Under the pieces are notes generated by a model, which was not told where the DNA came from, did not search any database, and was given only the letters and a program-made list of their open reading frames with translations. Made by a program: the position numbers and the translations under genes. Shown piece after piece: positions 3,484 through 43,802 of a DNA stretch of 64,000 bases. This DNA is from a virus. The DNA is taken from the IMG/VR virus record IMGVR_UViG_3300032291_002550, positions 126,436-190,435 of that record. The stretch is one strand, 5' to 3'. How positions within the stretch are numbered: position 1 is the first letter of the stretch; every line of letters starts with the position of its first letter.

Positions 3484-3938
3484 CAGCGCCATCGTACGTA
3501 TATGACAATATTGTTTTGAATGAATTAGATTATAAATTCTTTCAAAGCTTACCGGTAAGAGAAAAGCTTGTTTTTTTATATGATCTTTGTTTAGAAGTAG
3601 AAAATCATAATGAGGAGCTAGAAGATGAGTATGAAGATACCGAAGAAGAAGATGGTAAGATATTACCTAATAAACTTTTAAAATTTTTTGAACAAGCTTC
3701 ATGTGATCAAAACTACGTTCATATATTAATATTACCTGATATATTAGTTATTTCCGGAAATTTAACAACGACATTAAGTTCTACTAAAAACTATTTGTTT
3801 AATGAAGGTTATATTTTTACATCAGATACAGATTCATATCAACTTTTAAATAATGAAGTAAAACAACTTCAAACATATTTTAAATATGTAGAAGTATATA
3901 AATTACTTTCTATCATATATCCTACCAGTTTAAATTAA
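3480..3938 (+). CDS. Hypothetical acidic protein, 152 residues
   Basis: Not recognised. Starts MTAPSYVYDNIVLNELDYKF and carries a strongly acidic stretch at residues 43-58 (EELEDEYEDTEEEDGK), followed by hydrophobic strands (HILILPDILVISG) that suggest a small alpha/beta fold. Such acidic tracts are common in phage inhibitor or DNA-mimic proteins, but nothing here proves that. Last gene of its run; the terminator hairpin begins at its stop codon. Confidence 0.65.
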   Translation: MTAPSYVYDNIVLNELDYKFFQSLPVREKLVFLYDLCLEVENHNEELEDEYEDTEEEDGKILPNKLLKFFEQASCDQNYVHILILPDILVISGNLTTTLSSTKNYLFNEGYIFTSDTDSYQLLNNEVKQLQTYFKYVEVYKLLSIIYPTSLN

Positions 3939-3959
3939 GCCCATAATTGGGCTTTTTTT
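3937..3959 (+). terminator. Rho-independent terminator
   Basis: AAGCCC (3937-3942), loop ATAATT, GGGCTT (3949-3954), then a run of seven T. The stem overlaps the upstream stop codon. Confidence 0.85.
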
Positions 3960-4006
3960 ATGTAAAAAAATTAGGTTTTTTGAATTGTTTTCCTTATCTT
4001 TATGAT

Positions 4007-4927
4007 ATGATAAGAAACTTAGGATATGCATGTATTAATACTACTTTACAACAAAGTAAAATTACTACTAATCGAGGTATGAAACAAGCTACGTTTAAGG
4101 CAAAAGGCCTACCGTACGTGTCTGAATTAGCTTTAAAAAATGTAATAGATTTAGAAAAAGTTATTCATTGGAATGAAGCTAATAAAATTAAATTTTTTCG
4201 TATTAGTAGCGACATTTTTCCATGGTGTAGTGAGTATGAGTTTAGCCAATTACCGGACTTTGCACAAATTAAAGCAATTATGGAGCGTATAGGTAAATAT
4301 ATAGATGCTCATAACCACCGAATATCTGCTCATCCTGGCCCGTTTAACTTATTAGCATCTCCTAATGAAGCTGTAGTTAAAAAGACTCTTATAGAGCTTG
4401 AAAACCACTCCAAAGTTTTTGATTTATTAGGTCTATCACATACACCATATAACAAAATTAATATACATATAGGTGCTACGTACAATAATAAAGAAGTTGC
4501 TGTGCAGACATGGGTGAAGAATGTACAAAGATTAAGTACAAGTGCTCGAGCTCGTTTAACGGTAGAAAATGATGATAAGGCATCGATGTTCTCTGTAAAA
4601 GATTTATACGATATGGTATACACCAAATGTGGCGTTCCTATTGTTTTTGATTATCATCATCATACATTTTGTACAGGTGGATTGACTACAGAAGAAGCTC
4701 TTAAATTAGCATGTAGTACATGGCCGGCGGATATTTATCCAGCAACGCATTATTCTGAAAGTAAGTCATTACATTTAAACGATTCGAAAATTAAGCTTCA
4801 AGCTCATAGCGACTTAATCAATGGTCCTATAGATTGTTATGGTATGAATATCGATGTTATGATTGAAGCAAAGTCAAAAGAGTTAGCTTTATTAGGATTT
4901 AGAAAAAAATATTTTAATGAAGATTAG
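4007..4927 (+). CDS. uvsE: UV DNA damage endonuclease (UvdE/UvsE family)
   Basis: Homologous to UVDE, a TIM-barrel metal enzyme that nicks DNA 5' of pyrimidine dimers and other lesions to start repair. Visible family segments are MIRNLGYACIN at the N-terminus, FRISSDIFPW, the metal-site regions SAHPGPFN and INIHIGA, LTVENDD, VFDYHHH and the HLND near the end. Start chosen at ATG 4007 (306 residues) because it places the family's RLGY-like opening first. The longer frame begins at a TTG inside the terminator hairpin and is unlikely. T4 repairs dimers with the unrelated DenV, so this is a different solution to the same problem. Confidence 0.88.
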   Translation: MIRNLGYACINTTLQQSKITTNRGMKQATFKAKGLPYVSELALKNVIDLEKVIHWNEANKIKFFRISSDIFPWCSEYEFSQLPDFAQIKAIMERIGKYIDAHNHRISAHPGPFNLLASPNEAVVKKTLIELENHSKVFDLLGLSHTPYNKINIHIGATYNNKEVAVQTWVKNVQRLSTSARARLTVENDDKASMFSVKDLYDMVYTKCGVPIVFDYHHHTFCTGGLTTEEALKLACSTWPADIYPATHYSESKSLHLNDSKIKLQAHSDLINGPIDCYGMNIDVMIEAKSKELALLGFRKKYFNED

Positions 4928-21509: not shown

Positions 21510-21926
21510 ATGGCAAAAAAGAAATTTTCAATTAGAGCATTAGCTCGCAAACATGGATATCGTTCTGGACTAGAAGATAAGATATCAGAACAACTTAAGT
21601 TCACAGGAAAAACTTGGAGTTACGAATCTGAAAAATTAAAGTATACTATCCCGGAGAGAGTTGCAACATATACACCTGATTTTATCTTAATTAAGAAAGA
21701 TGGAAGTAAAATGTATATAGAAACTAAAGGCAGATTTACTGCTATTGATAGAAAGAAGCATCTATTAGTAAAGAGTAGTAACCCAGAATTAGATATACGT
21801 CTTTTATTTCAAACACCAAATAATAAGATAACTAAAAACTCTAAAACTACATACGCAGATTGGGCGAATAAAAATGGATATCTTTGGGCAGCAAAAGAAA
21901 TTCCTGTTGAATGGCTAGAAGAATAA
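21510..21926 (+). CDS. T7 endonuclease I-like Holliday junction resolvase
   Basis: 138 residues, T7 gp3 size. Catalytic residues in order: Glu22 in YRSGLEDKI, Asp57 in YTPDFIL, Glu71 and Lys73 in IETKG, the E-D-E-K set of the PD-(D/E)XK enzyme T7 endonuclease I. It would resolve recombination junctions before packaging, the role T4 gives to the unrelated endonuclease VII (gp49). The N-terminus is basic. It is followed by primase and Mre11-Rad50 genes, so this is a replication and recombination cluster placed between tail genes. Confidence 0.88.
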   Translation: MAKKKFSIRALARKHGYRSGLEDKISEQLKFTGKTWSYESEKLKYTIPERVATYTPDFILIKKDGSKMYIETKGRFTAIDRKKHLLVKSSNPELDIRLLFQTPNNKITKNSKTTYADWANKNGYLWAAKEIPVEWLEE

Positions 21927-21950
21927 GAAATTTTTATTATATTATCTTAA

Positions 21951-22898
21951 ATGGATAATACTAAATTAATTTCTTCTTTAGAATCGGTTCTTGGTCGTGG
22001 TAAGAAAACGTCCGGTGGAAATGTAGCATTTTACTGCCCGTTTTGTAATCATCATAAAAGAAAATTAGAAGTTCAATTAATAACTACTAATAAAGGCGAG
22101 AATCATTGGCATTGTTGGACATGTAACAAAGCCGGAAAAAAGCTAAAAAATTTATATAAACAACTTAATACTAGTTATGATAAAATTGTAGAGTTAAATA
22201 AAGCTCTAGGTGTTATTACTAAAGACATTAACAGTTTATTTATAGAACATTCGAATTATACATCGACACATTTATCACTCCCGGCAGAATATAAATCTTT
22301 TTTGGAAGCAGAAAATACCCCTGATTATAGGAATGCTTTAAAATATTTAAGAGAAGATCGTGGGTTTACAAATTTTGATATTATAAAATATCATCTAGGA
22401 TTTTGCGAAACGGGTCAGTATAGACATAAAATTATTATTCCTAGTTATAATTTATCAGGCAGTTTAAATTTCTTTGTTGGCAGGGATTTCTATGGTTCTA
22501 ATTTTAAACATAAAAATCCAAATGTAAGTAAAGAAATAATTGGGTTTGAATTATATGTAAATTGGAATTTACCTGTAGTATTAGTTGAAGGCGCAATTGA
22601 TGCAATGACAATTAAAAGAAATACCATTCCATTATTCGGGAAAACAATTCCAGATGAACTTAGAAAACGATTAATAGAAAAAAAAGTAAAAGAAATTTAT
22701 ATTTGTTTAGATAAAGATGCTCAAAAACAAGCATTAAATGTAGCAAGTGAATTTATGGATGAAGGTATGACAGTTTATTTTGTAGACCTTCATGAAAAAG
22801 ATCCAAATGAAATTGGATTTGAACGAATGATTAAAATTATTAAAGAAACAAAGCCGTTAACATTTGCGGAGTTAATAAAATATAAATTAAATATATGA
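21951..22898 (+). CDS. 61: DNA primase, gp61-like (zinc finger plus TOPRIM)
   Basis: 315 residues, like T4 gp61 (342). Zinc-binding cysteines Cys29/Cys32 (YCPFC) and Cys55/Cys58 (CWTC) are at the N-terminus. The TOPRIM glutamate motif VLVEGAIDAM is at about 210-219 and the acidic CLDKDA at 252-257. It makes RNA primers for lagging-strand synthesis and would need a partner helicase (gp41), not in this window. It overlaps the next start as ATGA, so it is coupled to the Mre11-Rad50 fusion. Confidence 0.88.
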   Translation: MDNTKLISSLESVLGRGKKTSGGNVAFYCPFCNHHKRKLEVQLITTNKGENHWHCWTCNKAGKKLKNLYKQLNTSYDKIVELNKALGVITKDINSLFIEHSNYTSTHLSLPAEYKSFLEAENTPDYRNALKYLREDRGFTNFDIIKYHLGFCETGQYRHKIIIPSYNLSGSLNFFVGRDFYGSNFKHKNPNVSKEIIGFELYVNWNLPVVLVEGAIDAMTIKRNTIPLFGKTIPDELRKRLIEKKVKEIYICLDKDAQKQALNVASEFMDEGMTVYFVDLHEKDPNEIGFERMIKIIKETKPLTFAELIKYKLNI

Positions 22899-25800
22899 TT
22901 AAAATTCATAAAATAAATAATAAAATAAGTAATATTCAATATATTATTCATATTGCAGATATTCATATTCGTTTACAAAAACGACATGAAGAATATCGTA
23001 CAGTATTTTCTAGATTATATGAATATTGTAAAAATTTTAAATCTAATAATCCAAATACAATTATATATGTAGCCGGAGATATTGCTCATTCTAAGACAGA
23101 TATGTCACCTGAGCAAATAAACATGATTCAAGATTTTTTTAGATCATTAGCAGATATCACAGATACAATCGTAATTACTGGTAATCATGATATGAATCTA
23201 AATAATAAAACTAGATTAGATGCCCTAGAGCCTATTATTAATGCTCTTAATCATCCTAACTTATTTTATTTAAAAAATACCGGTGTTTATGAATTAGGTA
23301 ATGTTTATTTTAATGTAATGGGTGTATCTGATAAGCCAATATCATTTATTAAAGGCATAGATATACCAAATGATAAAATTAAAATTGCTCTTCATCATGG
23401 CGCAGTGAATCAAGCTTCGACAGCAGTTGGATTTCAATTAACAAATGATCATGTAAATACAGAAACATTTGCAAATCATACAATTACATTATTAGGAGAT
23501 ATACATAAATTTCAATATCTAAACTCAGATAAAACTATTGCTTATGCTTCTAGTCTTATTCAACAAAATTTTGGGGAAACTTTAGACTTTCATGGATTGA
23601 TGATATGGGATGTTAATACCGCACAGTCTAAATTTATAGAAGTAGAAAATGATTATGGATATGTTACTTTAGAAGTTAGTAATGGTATAATAACGACATA
23701 CCCAGCAAAATTTCCAAAAAAGCCTAGAATCAAATTAAAGATTCAAAATACGACATCTTCTCAAATAAAAACAATTGTAGCAGATTTAAAATCTAAATAT
23801 AATGTTCAAGATATAGTAACGCAGAAAGTAAAAGATTTTCATAAAGATAATTCTAATACAACAAAAATATCTTTAGGTAATGTTAGGGATGTTGAATATC
23901 AAAATACAATATTAACAGATTATTTAACAAATCGTTTAGATATTGATGAAGATGAAATTTTAGATGGTGTGCGACATATTAACAGAATAATTAATTCTAA
24001 ATTACAAAGTGCAGACATTCCTAAGAATATAACATATAATCTTATGAAGTTTGAATTTTCAAACATGTTTAGTTATGGAGAAAATAATATTATAGATTTT
24101 AGTCAAATGAATGGAATTTATGGATTATTTGCTTCTAACAGAAGTGGTAAAAGTTCATTATTAGATTCATTATTATATTGTATTTTTGATAAATCTACGA
24201 AAACAGATAAAGCAGCATATGTTTTAAATAATAAAAAAGATTCATTTTCTTGTAAATTAGAAATTGAAATTAACAATAAAAAATATTTTATTGAGCGGTC
24301 TGGAGCAAAACAAAAATCAGGTCATGTTAGAGTAACTGTTAGCTTTTATACATTAGATGATGCAGGTCAAATTATTTCATTAAATGGTCAAGAACGTGAT
24401 GAAACAAATGCTATTATCAGAACATATTTAGGAACATATAAAGACTTTATTTTAACTTCAGTAATTGCTCAAAATAATAATACTGGATTTATTGAAATGA
24501 CTCAAAAAGAACGTAAAGATTTATTGTCACAGTTTTTAGATATTAATATTTTTGATGATTTACAAAAAATAGCATCTGAAGAAATTAAAGATGTACATGC
24601 TCTTTTAAAGGACTTACAAAAACAAGATTTTAGTAGTAGAATTTCTGATGCAGAAAAAGTTATAAAAGAAAATGAAATATCTCATAAAGAATTAGACATT
24701 AAACGTATAACATTAGAAAATTGTATTACGAAGCATGAATCTGCATTATTAGATATTGCTTCAAAAATTATACCTTTAACAGATGTAAGTTATGACTTAA
24801 ATAAATTACAAAATAATTTAGAATTAGCAACATCAAAATCTGAGAAACTTTTATCTGAAATATTATCAATATCTAATGAAATTAGCAATTTAGACGAACG
24901 TATAAGCACGTTAACGGATAAACTAAATACATTTAATATGGATGAAATTGATAGCTCTTTAAATCAATTAAAATTGTATAACGAGCAACATAAAAAACTG
25001 TTATCTGATTTAAAAGTTAAACAAGTACATCATTCTCATATTCTAGATAAAATGAAAAAATTAGAAGATCTAGAATATGATCAAAATTGTTCATTTTGTA
25101 TGAATAATATATTTGTAAAAGATGCAATTCAAACTAAAGAAACTTTATCTTCTCATGAAAATGAAATTAAGGATTTATTGGAAGGACAAAAATCTCTTGA
25201 AATTTCAATAAATGGGTTAGACCAATATATACTTCAAAATAAAGAAGTTAACAGTATTAAAAGTGAAATTCAAGTTCTTGAAAATAAAAAGTCATCTTTA
25301 GAGTTAAGTTCTAGTCAAAAGAAAGTTGGACATGCAGCCGCAGAAAGTTCAAAGAAAGAATTTGTTGATAGTATTAAAACATATAATGAAAATAAAGATG
25401 CTATAGAGTATAATTTATCATTTACAGAAGAAATTAAACGTACTAAAGAAGAATTAAGTAAAGATAAGACAGAATTAGGATTAATTAATTCTCAAATGTC
25501 CAAATTAATAACTGGTATTGAATTAGAAAAGCAAAATAAAACTAATGCTTTAAATAGTATTGAAAAGCTTAGATCATTAGAACGAGAATATAAGTTTTAT
25601 GAATTATATCTTTCTGCTACAAATCGTAACGGAATTCCATATGATTTAATTTGTAAGGTAATGCCTCAAATTGAAACAGAAATTAATAATGTATTAAACC
25701 AATTAGTAGATTTTAATATCATGCTTCAAACAGATGAAAAAAATATTAATGCATATATTGTTTATGATGATGACAATTATTGGCCATTAGAACTAACATC

Positions 25801-26071
25801 GGGGATGGAAAGATTTGTTAGTTCATTAGCTATAAGAAATGCATTAATCAGTATTACTAATTTACCTAAACCAAATTTTATTGCTATAGATGAAGGTTTT
25901 ACGCAATTAGATTCTGAAAACATGAATCAAGTATATTTATTATTCAATTATCTTAAAACACAATTTGATTTTATGATGATTATTTCTCATATAGATGTTA
26001 TGAGAGATATGGTAGAACATTTTATTGAAATTAAAAAAGAACAAGGATTTTCTAAAGTTTCCATTATGTAA
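22895..26071 (+). CDS. 47-46: Fused Mre11-Rad50 (SbcD-SbcC, T4 gp47-gp46) recombination nuclease
   Basis: 1058 residues in one frame. Residues 1 to about 380 are an Mre11/SbcD phosphoesterase: DIH (22-24), GD (61-62), GNHD (96-99), HHGA and GDIHK. From Met384 it becomes Rad50/SbcC: KFEFSNMFSYGENN, Walker A NRSGKSS (415-421), two long coiled coils around a zinc hook Cys732-SF-Cys735, signature LTSGMERF at about 967-974, and Walker B FIAIDEGF with Asp999-Glu1000. In T4 and hosts these are two genes. The complex resects DNA ends for recombination-dependent replication and host DNA breakdown. No internal stop or frameshift is present. Confidence 0.93.
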   Translation: MIKIHKINNKISNIQYIIHIADIHIRLQKRHEEYRTVFSRLYEYCKNFKSNNPNTIIYVAGDIAHSKTDMSPEQINMIQDFFRSLADITDTIVITGNHDMNLNNKTRLDALEPIINALNHPNLFYLKNTGVYELGNVYFNVMGVSDKPISFIKGIDIPNDKIKIALHHGAVNQASTAVGFQLTNDHVNTETFANHTITLLGDIHKFQYLNSDKTIAYASSLIQQNFGETLDFHGLMIWDVNTAQSKFIEVENDYGYVTLEVSNGIITTYPAKFPKKPRIKLKIQNTTSSQIKTIVADLKSKYNVQDIVTQKVKDFHKDNSNTTKISLGNVRDVEYQNTILTDYLTNRLDIDEDEILDGVRHINRIINSKLQSADIPKNITYNLMKFEFSNMFSYGENNIIDFSQMNGIYGLFASNRSGKSSLLDSLLYCIFDKSTKTDKAAYVLNNKKDSFSCKLEIEINNKKYFIERSGAKQKSGHVRVTVSFYTLDDAGQIISLNGQERDETNAIIRTYLGTYKDFILTSVIAQNNNTGFIEMTQKERKDLLSQFLDINIFDDLQKIASEEIKDVHALLKDLQKQDFSSRISDAEKVIKENEISHKELDIKRITLENCITKHESALLDIASKIIPLTDVSYDLNKLQNNLELATSKSEKLLSEILSISNEISNLDERISTLTDKLNTFNMDEIDSSLNQLKLYNEQHKKLLSDLKVKQVHHSHILDKMKKLEDLEYDQNCSFCMNNIFVKDAIQTKETLSSHENEIKDLLEGQKSLEISINGLDQYILQNKEVNSIKSEIQVLENKKSSLELSSSQKKVGHAAAESSKKEFVDSIKTYNENKDAIEYNLSFTEEIKRTKEELSKDKTELGLINSQMSKLITGIELEKQNKTNALNSIEKLRSLEREYKFYELYLSATNRNGIPYDLICKVMPQIETEINNVLNQLVDFNIMLQTDEKNINAYIVYDDDNYWPLELTSGMERFVSSLAIRNALISITNLPKPNFIAIDEGFTQLDSENMNQVYLLFNYLKTQFDFMMIISHIDVMRDMVEHFIEIKKEQGFSKVSIM

Positions 26072-28796: not shown

Positions 28797-31250
28797 ATGA
28801 AAAATAAAACTATAGCAATTTATCCTGGAAGATTTCAGCCTTTCGGAAAACATCATGCAGCTGCATTTATGTGGCTTCAAAATAAATTTGGAAAAGAAAA
28901 TACGTATATCGTAACATCAAATAAAGTAGACCCGGAAAAATCTCCTTTTAATTTTACCGAAAAGAAAGCCATTATGGAGCTTTATGGCATTAACCCTTCT
29001 CATATTATTGAAGTAAAGAATCCGTACAGTCCCGCAGAACTATATAGCCAAATTGACCCGGAAACTACATCGGTAGTATTCATGGTTGGAGAAAAAGATA
29101 TGGGAGAAGACCCTAGATTTAAAATAGGTCCTAAAAAAGACAGAAGTCCTAGTTTTTTTCAAAGTTATAAAGGAAATGAAAATAATCTGCAACCATTATC
29201 TAAACATGGATATTTAATTACTGCACCACATATTTCATTAAAAGTGCCTGGGTATGGAGAAATGTCTGGAACAGAAATAAGAAAGGCATTAGGAGATACA
29301 ACAAAATCACGAGAAGAAAAGAAAGAAATATTTCAAGAAATATTTGGTTGGTATTCAGAAAAAATGGCTAACTATATATTTGATAAATTAGAAAATAAAA
29401 TGACTGAAAAATTTAGTAAAGATTGGTGGTTAGATAAACTACTTCAAGAAGATTGCTGGGATGGATATAAACAAATTGGTATGAAGAAAAAAGGAAAGAA
29501 ACAAGTTCCTAATTGTGTACCTATTAATGAGTATGATTTAGTTACATGCGAAATTTGTGGTGAACAAATGAAACAGATAACTCCAAACCATTTAAAATAC
29601 AAACATCAAAGTACTTTAAAGGAATATATAATTTCATACCCAACATCGAAATTATTATCAGATTCTTTAAGAAAAGAATTAAGAGATAAAAACCCCATGA
29701 AGTCATCAAACTCTATAAAAAAAATAGCAGAGACTAAATTACAAAAACATGGCAATCCTAACTATAATAATATTGAGAAACAAAAATCTACAATTAAAGA
29801 ACGATATAATATTAGTAATATTATGCAATTACCGCATAATATTGAAAGAGCTAAAAAGCAACTAGATTTAATTAGAGAAAGAAAATATTTATCTGGAGAA
29901 TGGATACCGGCAGAATTAAAAGAAGGATATATCGGGTATAGAGATGTGGTACGATTATTGACCGAACAGACATTTAAAAAATATTATTATGAAATTAATA
30001 ACTCAGATAAAAGGTCTAAAGAATGGCATTTAGATCATAAATATTCTATTAAAGATGGTTATATGAATGGAATTCCGGCATGGATGTTAGCTATAAAAGA
30101 AAATTTAGAAATTGTGCATCATACAATTAATGAATCTAAAAATTCAAAATCTACAATTGGAATTAATGAATTAATTATACATGCTTTAGAAAGTGCCGGT
30201 GGCAGTTCTATACAATTATTATTGTGCGGAGGTGCAGCCGGTCATATGAAACATCCTTTTGATTTACCCCAAGTAACATCTGGTAAAGATTTAATTAATG
30301 TTTTTGAAGATTCTGCTACGTACTTAACTACAAACCCAGCAGCAATAAAAATTGATGGAGTAAATGCATCAGTTAGATTAGTTATATTAGATGGTCAAAG
30401 ACAGTTTGTTTTAGATAGAGGCTCGATGAAACCTTTAGATGTTAAAGGAATTACAAAAGCAGATTTATTAGATAGATTTGGAGAAGGACATGGATTTATT
30501 CAAACAGGTGGTAAAGTATTAGATATTTTTAATGATTCATTACCTAGCATTCAACAAGAATTAAAAGCATTAGGAATGTGGGATAACCCAAATATAATGT
30601 TTAATGTTGAATATGTTGCTGGAAGTACTAACGTATTATCCTATGCTAAAAACTTTTTAGCTATTCATGGTTTATTAGAATTATTTCAAGCTACGCCAAA
30701 AAGAAGAGAATCAAAGGAAATTCCATATAATAAAAAAGCATTAGAATCTTTAGTAGCAAAAATGAATCCAATTGCAGAGAAATCTGGATTTGAAGTAGTA
30801 CATGAATTCACTACTAGACCATCTAAACCAGCAAATTTAAGTTCAGTATTAAATCAAAAGCATACTATTATCATTAATGGTAAAAAAGAATCTAAATCAT
30901 TAAAACAATGGTTAGATGAAATTCAAACAATACCTAGTGGGCAAAAAGTAACTTTAATAGATGATAAAGCAGTTGGCGCAGTATCTAAAGAAATATTAAT
31001 GAGATTATCAGGAAATAATAATATTAATGAAGTAGTAAAAGATCCTGCAGATTATAAAGCAGCAATTGATGGATATTTTATTTATCTAGCAACAATGTTA
31101 TTAGGAGATGAAGTATTAGAATCAATTACCTCAGATTTAGGAGATAGTAAAGACCAAGAAGGTATCGTAGTAAGAGGATTATATCCAGATGTATTTAAGA
31201 TAACTGGGTCATTTATTATAAAAGGCATGGAAAGTCAATTTAGAAAATAA
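28797..31250 (+). CDS. Nucleotidyltransferase / HNH endonuclease-like insert / nucleic-acid-ligase-like fusion
   Basis: 817 residues in three parts. Residues 1 to about 195: NMNAT/cytidylyltransferase fold, with YPGRFQPFGKHH (9-20) and SGTEIRKAL as nucleotide motifs. Residues 246-457: a homing-endonuclease-like insert with a CEICG zinc knuckle (251-255), an HGNPNYNN segment and an HNH-type core EWHLDHKYSI with following N...N..K. Residues 459-817: covalent nucleotidyltransferase (RNA/DNA ligase) fold with motif I Lys518-IDG, EGIVVRG at about 788-794, and KITGSFIIKG near the end. Without the insert, the outer parts join as VPINE-LIIHALES. NAD or RNA repair is a possible role; not proven. Confidence 0.7.
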   Translation: MKNKTIAIYPGRFQPFGKHHAAAFMWLQNKFGKENTYIVTSNKVDPEKSPFNFTEKKAIMELYGINPSHIIEVKNPYSPAELYSQIDPETTSVVFMVGEKDMGEDPRFKIGPKKDRSPSFFQSYKGNENNLQPLSKHGYLITAPHISLKVPGYGEMSGTEIRKALGDTTKSREEKKEIFQEIFGWYSEKMANYIFDKLENKMTEKFSKDWWLDKLLQEDCWDGYKQIGMKKKGKKQVPNCVPINEYDLVTCEICGEQMKQITPNHLKYKHQSTLKEYIISYPTSKLLSDSLRKELRDKNPMKSSNSIKKIAETKLQKHGNPNYNNIEKQKSTIKERYNISNIMQLPHNIERAKKQLDLIRERKYLSGEWIPAELKEGYIGYRDVVRLLTEQTFKKYYYEINNSDKRSKEWHLDHKYSIKDGYMNGIPAWMLAIKENLEIVHHTINESKNSKSTIGINELIIHALESAGGSSIQLLLCGGAAGHMKHPFDLPQVTSGKDLINVFEDSATYLTTNPAAIKIDGVNASVRLVILDGQRQFVLDRGSMKPLDVKGITKADLLDRFGEGHGFIQTGGKVLDIFNDSLPSIQQELKALGMWDNPNIMFNVEYVAGSTNVLSYAKNFLAIHGLLELFQATPKRRESKEIPYNKKALESLVAKMNPIAEKSGFEVVHEFTTRPSKPANLSSVLNQKHTIIINGKKESKSLKQWLDEIQTIPSGQKVTLIDDKAVGAVSKEILMRLSGNNNINEVVKDPADYKAAIDGYFIYLATMLLGDEVLESITSDLGDSKDQEGIVVRGLYPDVFKITGSFIIKGMESQFRK
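29532..30170 (+). mobile_element. In-frame HNH homing-endonuclease-like insertion
   Basis: Codons 246-458 of the fusion gene. Flanked by the short direct repeat ATTAATGA (29523-29530 and 30162-30169), encoding INE on each side, as if the insert had duplicated or recombined through this site. There is a zinc-knuckle CEICG near its start and an HLDH nuclease core near its end. No intein splice motifs were found (no starting Cys-Leu block and no terminal His-Asn). The exact borders are inferred. Confidence 0.6.
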
Positions 31251-43189: not shown

Positions 43190-43217
43190 GGCAGAAGAAA
43201 TTCTGCCTTTTTTTATG
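43190..43217 (+). terminator. Terminator after gp23, copy 1 of a 28-base repeat
   Basis: GGCAGAA (43190-43196), loop GAAA, TTCTGCC (43201-43207), seven T, then ATG. The 28 bases recur exactly at 43810-43837. Confidence 0.92.
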
Positions 43218-43236
43218 TTTTTGACATCCATAGAAC

Positions 43237-43252
43237 ATATTTATAATAAAAG
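43237..43252 (+). promoter_or_regulatory. Putative late promoter of the GIY-YIG gene
   Basis: ATATTTATAATAAAAG, eight bases before ATG 43261. Confidence 0.5.
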
Positions 43253-43260
43253 CAATTCTA

Positions 43261-43802
43261 TGGTTATATACGAAACAATAAATAAAATTAACGGAAAGCG
43301 TTATATAGGTAAAGATAAGTACAATGATCCTTCATATCTAGGCTCTGGTACATTATTAACTAAAGCAATAAAAAAGTATGGCAAAGAACATTTTATAAAA
43401 ACAATATTAGAGTATTGTAATTCAGAAGAACATATGGCTGAAAGAGAACAATATTGGATTAAATTAATGGGTGCACAAAAATCTAAGTTATATTATAATA
43501 TAGGAGAAGGTGGTAATGGCGGAGATAATATTTCACATAATCCTAAAAAAGATTTATTCATTAAAAAGATGACTAAAATTAATAATGATCCACAATATCT
43601 ACGTACTACAGTAGGGCATGGTGAATCTACAAAAGAAAATCAACGTAAAGCAGCAAAAGGACGTTATACATTACCATGGTTTAAAGAAAGATACGGAGAT
43701 GAAAATGGAGAACGTTTATATGAAGAACGAAGATGGAAATTAAAAAATAGAAACTATAATAAGTTTAGAGACCCAATAACAGGGAAGTTTTCTAAAATAT
43801 AA
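43261..43802 (+). CDS. GIY-YIG homing endonuclease (free-standing)
   Basis: 180 residues from ATG 43261. An upstream in-frame ATG at 43215 directly follows the T-run of the gp23 terminator and would precede the promoter-like motif, so it is unlikely. GIY-YIG core: VIYETINKINGKRYIGKDK (residues 2-20, with the VIY and YIG strands), GSGTLLTKAIKKYGKEHF, then EREQYWI with the catalytic Glu and the NIGEGGNGGD end of the domain. The C-terminal part (KGRYTLPWFKERYG) may bind DNA. Such genes spread by cutting neighbouring DNA of phages that lack them. Confidence 0.88.

Follow-up and report, generated by a model that had tools for sequence, protein, structure and literature searches.

The gene described here lies at positions 22895-26071, on the plus strand, of a 64,000-nucleotide stretch of viral DNA from IMG/VR (hereafter, the window). 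It is a single open frame of 1,058 codons with no internal stop. Inspection of its 1,058-aa product revealed the phosphoesterase motifs DIH (residues 22-24), GDIAH (61-65), GNHD (96-99), HHG (167-169), and GDIH (201-204), followed by a Walker A motif, ASNRSGKS (413-420), a CxxC zinc hook with the sequence CSFC (732-735), an ABC-type signature, TSGME (968-972), and a Walker B motif, IDE (998-1000, with D999/E1000). The protein matches the Pfam Metallophos profile (E value, 3e-9) and both SbcC-like (2e-42) and SbcD-like (2e-19) PHROGs; used as a single query, it retrieved SbcC and Rad50 from the PDB, and a profile of 81 relatives reached Mre11 structures too. The features diagnostic of Rad50/SbcC (Walker A, Q-loop, signature in an SGME variant, Walker B, D-loop, and His switch) are all present, as is the Mre11/SbcD motif set, apart from motif V, where Asp replaces the first His. 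A genuine covalent Mre11-Rad50 (SbcD-SbcC) fusion is thus supported by the frame, these matches, the relatives, and the structure model. An earlier note on this DNA had already read the frame as 1,058 codons of Mre11 followed by Rad50, and this reading is borne out by the lack of internal stops and the matches to both halves. The DIH, GNHD, and GDIHK motifs, Cys732/Cys735, and Walker B at 999-1000 that it listed were all located in the protein, as was its Walker A motif, the position of which has to be corrected from 415-421 to 413-420.

The domain anatomy was derived from a single-chain AlphaFold2 model built on an 81-sequence alignment, which supersedes a poor earlier model from 11 sequences (pLDDT, 70). 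The mean pLDDT is 83, and the pTM is only 0.45, making the placement of the domains relative to each other unsure. The model has the order phosphoesterase, capping region, helix-loop-helix, coil, Rad50 N-lobe, coiled coil, hook, coiled coil, and C-lobe. The calcineurin-like phosphoesterase domain of Mre11/SbcD (residues 1-250; 22895-23644; Metallophos match at residues 17-188) carries motifs I to V, with Asp202 replacing the first His of GHxH. It is followed by a predicted Mre11-type capping region (residues 254-311; 23654-23827), assigned from its predicted secondary structure and length, and a putative Rad50-binding helix-loop-helix (residues 333-368; 23891-23998; model helices 333-347 and 353-368). 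Both elements are in line with the match of profile positions 158-360 of the 81-relative profile to residues 168-374 of Thermotoga maritima Mre11 (3tho_B). The earlier note had expected a linker near residue 380, and the model places a lower-confidence coil of about 11 residues at 369-379 (23999-24031), between helix 353-368 and strand 380-389, with Rad50 beginning at residue 380. The N-terminal ATPase lobe (residues 380-580; 24032-24634) contains Walker A and Q526. Long helices at about residues 579-724 and 739-909 (24629-25621) form coiled-coil arms flanking the C732/C735 hook (25088-25099), and the C-terminal lobe (residues 910-1058; 25622-26068) contains TSGME, Walker B, the D-loop, and H1032. 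Rad50, SbcC, SMC-type, and Mre11 structures are among those listed in a Foldseek search of the model against the PDB.

Upstream on the same strand are genes for a T7-type endonuclease I of the Holliday-junction resolvase family (21510-21926; Pfam Phage_endo_I, 1e-42) and a DnaG-type primase with a zinc ribbon and a Toprim domain (21951-22898; Pfam and PHROGs matches). As the earlier note had pointed out, the start codon of the fusion gene and the stop codon of the primase gene overlap within ATGA (22895-22898). Among the 83 relatives with at least 1.5 kb of upstream sequence, the primase is upstream in 82 and the endonuclease in 67, and the most frequent overlap upstream of the fusion gene is the same 4-base ATGA. 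The cassette of endonuclease I, primase, and Mre11-Rad50 (21510-26071) sits inside a tail-gene cluster: homologs of the upstream tail-region genes of the window occur in 55 of 65 relatives, and a homolog of its downstream tail-fiber gene occurs in 63 of 71. It is far from the genes for UvsX, the helicase, and the polymerase, an arrangement kept in the relatives. Its position amid tail genes rather than beside UvsX and the helicase makes late expression possible.

The window further encodes terminase, portal, major head, and contractile tail sheath proteins. At a length of 196,980 bases, the source record has an exact 123-base terminal overlap (196858-196980 equals 1-123), with a RecA/UvsX gene spanning its ends; it is therefore circular in the assembly and is probably the complete genome of a tailed phage of ~197 kb. 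This genome codes for UvsX, a DnaB helicase, a DNA polymerase, ribonucleotide reductase, thymidylate synthase, and GroEL, and it has one Mre11/SbcD and one primase, with no second copy of either. Elsewhere in the window, we observed a UvdE-type UV endonuclease gene (3947-4927; Pfam, 8e-55) and a GIY-YIG homing endonuclease gene (43215-43802) immediately following the gene for the major head protein. An 817-aa nucleotidyltransferase-like gene (28797-31250) is enlarged by about 230 residues inserted in frame, which include the HNH-like sequence KEWHLDHK and are missing in two close relatives; the ends of this insertion are not intein-like, and no Rfam intron match was found for this gene. Most of nine gene starts inspected between 18029 and 31265 have no apparent upstream Shine-Dalgarno-like sequence; this is a frequent trait of Bacteroidota phages.

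Scans of IMG/VR viral contigs recovered hundreds of relatives of the fusion protein. In 98 of the retrieved loci, a single frame crosses both halves; 92 of these are full length, and 88 are distinct. The loci were chosen by similarity to the fused protein, and they do not measure the overall frequency of fusion. The search for two-domain relatives that the earlier note had called for was thus productive: the frame is single in all 88 distinct full-length relatives, and every one retains D22, D62, N97, H98, H168, D202, H204, N415, G418, and K419, as well as both hook Cys residues, SGME, D999/E1000, and H1032. A search of bacterial and archaeal genomes matched two contigs, both fragments of 4-11 kb from metagenome-assembled genomes (MAGs), and a plasmid search returned a weak partial match only. 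A contig assigned to an archaeal MAG (Candidatus Nitrosopelagicus; CALBOT010000005.1) bears a fusion gene with 47% identity; the contig is probably of phage origin and was binned with the archaeal sequences.

Because T4-like and SPO1-like phages have split genes as a rule, the single frame might be suspected to be an artifact or the recent loss of a stop codon in one genome. We regard this as extremely improbable. The 88 single-frame relatives include a GenBank-annotated coding sequence of Microcystis phage Mel-JY01, and comparison of the window gene with five relatives by region gave dN/dS values of 0.01-0.12 for the junction (residues 340-415), next to 0.05-0.14 for the Mre11 half, 0.03-0.10 for the ATPase lobes, and 0.24-0.65 for the coils. 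The junction is accordingly among the most constrained parts of the gene and is under strong purifying selection; together with the conserved frame, this rules out a lost stop or frameshift near 24040. It might also be proposed that the full-length chain is made while the Rad50 half is separately translated from an internal start, giving a mixture of full-length and Rad50-only chains, as an in-frame ATG lies right at the start of Rad50 (codon 384, position 24044). However, Met is found at residue 384 in only 6 of the 88 relatives, so that separate translation of this half is not conserved. Codon 384 also lacks an apparent Shine-Dalgarno-like sequence, yet the neighboring genes do likewise. We therefore consider internal initiation improbable.

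The active-site variants bear on whether the nuclease half works as in other members of the family. The signature is SGME in all 88 relatives, and the first Walker A residue is Ala in 87, in keeping with the usual P-loop pattern, [AG]x4GK[ST]. In motif V, all 88 have Asp where the first His would be expected, so metal use or activity could differ, and one could argue that the nuclease half is altered or inactive and that the protein mainly tethers DNA or senses its ends in an ATP-dependent manner, or else degrades host DNA rather than serving replication. The invariance of this Asp favors such a reading, as does the retention of His (GHxH) in T4 gp47, in five other split phage SbcD proteins (043JT007, PA5oct, LysYB1, S-B68, and Twort), and in E. 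coli SbcD; the equivalent residue, Pfu His206, has a reported role in nuclease activity. Against it, every other metal ligand is kept, Asp is itself able to bind metal, and purifying selection on the Mre11 half is strong. Moreover, the same change (GDxH) occurs in the split SbcD proteins of phages PSTCR5 and RHph_N2_6 and in Mimivirus R555, a protein classed in print as Mre11-like, where Asp242 is the Pfu His206 equivalent (PMC3175470). Weighing these points, we deem an altered or inactive nuclease, or a host-DNA degrader, unlikely, though less so than internal initiation. The occurrence of GDxH in split proteins and of GHIH in the fused protein of phage PAU further indicates that the motif V change is not tied to fusion and excludes it as a fusion-linked signature.

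Fusions of this kind, and their gene neighborhood, have been known since 2011, when Yoshida, Claverie, and Ogata gave the first description of Mre11/Rad50 fusions, their examples ranging from Mimivirus R555 to Bacillus phage 0305phi8-36; published cases come from phages, plasmids (one of them from C. kluyveri), bacteria, and giant viruses (PMC3175470). The statement of the earlier note that T4 and bacteria keep two genes therefore holds for T4 and E. coli and fails as a generalization. The window protein has the characteristics of the R555 kind: one frame, Mre11 first, and a linker within the 9-12-residue range that those authors judged compatible with the T. maritima complex (PMC3175470). Like R555 and the other giant-virus fusions, it has an N-terminal Mre11 and a C-terminal Rad50 in one chain, and it shares with R555 the motif V Asp and a comparable linker. 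The giant-virus proteins, in contrast, are mostly longer (many about 1,200-1,400 aa; R555, 1351 aa) and belong to viruses of eukaryotes, whereas the window gene is in a tailed phage and adjoins primase and endonuclease I genes. R555-like genes are abundant in aquatic viral-fraction metagenomes (GOS/BIOME) with the same neighbors, phage primases and T7 gp3-type endonucleases, and the 2011 authors proposed phages as the owners of some of them; they were then known from short scaffolds only (PMC3175470), unlike the circular phage genome found here. SbcC and SbcD have also been called universal in jumbo phages of the Myoviridae in a 2021 survey (PMC7824862).

Among named phages, the fused protein of Mel-JY01 (WWT39521) is about 42% identical and likewise has a primase upstream but is annotated merely as an "AAA domain containing protein." The homolog in the huge phage LR756508 is 35-40% identical, also downstream of a primase, but unannotated and broken by an insert. 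In this 484-kb genome (LR756508.1, 2902-7127), the gene is interrupted just after GDIHK by about 1 kb containing a 305-aa open reading frame (3623-4540) with a TnsA-like nuclease domain; the insert is a candidate intron or homing-endonuclease insertion, and a search of Rfam gave no intron match for it. More distant are the proteins of Tenacibaculum phages PTm1/pT24, Chryseobacterium phage MA9V-1, Sphingomonas phage PAU, and huge phage LR756501, which have the same domain order in one coding sequence but are about 1,200-1,330 aa long and only about 24-27% identical where aligned; no adjoining primase or endonuclease is annotated in the segments inspected. T4 gp47/gp46 and E. coli SbcD/SbcC are the same two enzymes in the same order (in T4, with two small genes between) and likely share the job of the window fusion; they differ in being encoded by two genes, in their GHxH motif V, and in their signatures, S-x-G-E in T4 and SGGE in E. 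coli versus SGME.

We examined the descent of the fusion with a tree of the Mre11 half (24 rows) and one of the Rad50 head (23 rows), each with 14 phage fusions, those of PTm1/pT24, MA9V-1, PAU, and LR756501 among them. In both, all 14 fall on one side of a branch, with the window family grouping with these more distant proteins; the support is 91/87 (90% of bootstrap trees) for Mre11 and 94/90 (94%) for Rad50, to be read with the caveats of few rows, long branches, and fusions found via mutual similarity. This fits one old fusion event for the phage proteins, to which, rather than to giant-virus, plasmid, or eukaryotic fusions, the trees pertain. In a Foldseek search of viral models (BFVD), the best nine matches are about 970-1,420 residues long, seven named for giant viruses (including entries from Tupanvirus, Harvfovirus, Catovirus, and Tetraselmis virus) and two nameless; the best is from Tupanvirus (E value, 1e-79; 26% identity), and the phage fusions of pT24 and PTm1 come next in the ranking (16% identity). 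A single ancient fusion as the source of all phage single-chain proteins found here, shared with giant viruses of the R555 kind, is a tentative proposal, to which we lean slightly less than to its contrary; the 2011 study proposed that the fusion arose many times (PMC3175470). If it is true, the gene would have passed between tailed phages and giant viruses.

On the whole, the likely product of the gene is a functional phage nuclease-ATPase, a single-chain Mre11-Rad50 (SbcCD) protein of the broad R555 family that processes DNA ends for recombination-dependent replication. What we infer about its dimer, its activity as a nuclease with the Asp variant, and its part in replication can be pictured as follows. 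Two chains would dimerize via their phosphoesterase domains and ATP-sandwiched Rad50 heads to give an M2R2 complex, with each Mre11 tethered to one Rad50 by the linker and the zinc hooks joining or bridging the coils. Such a complex might bind phage DNA ends and trim or resect them to leave 3' single strands for the phage UvsX/RecA, and hairpins or blocked ends may be opened as well. The primase and the T7-type endonuclease I, co-translated with it, would contribute to recombination-dependent replication, branch resolution, and concatemer processing, with end resection and bridging occurring as for T4 gp46/47 but in one chain. The replication role is plausible because UvsX, the helicase, the polymerase, and a T7-type resolvase share the genome. 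Recombination-dependent end replication was put forward in 2011 as a possible role of R555 (PMC3175470).

The picture of how such nucleases work is unchanged by the window fusion, and its covalent 1:1 arrangement makes it convenient for structural studies and single-molecule experiments. What is added here is a circular phage genome, an operon conserved among relatives, evidence that the phage fusions form one clade, and a predicted fold close to that of the giant-virus fusions. The R555 homologs, more abundant in ocean metagenomes than any other Mimivirus-like gene, are thereby placed, as the 2011 authors had suspected, in a circular tailed-phage genome together with their operon.
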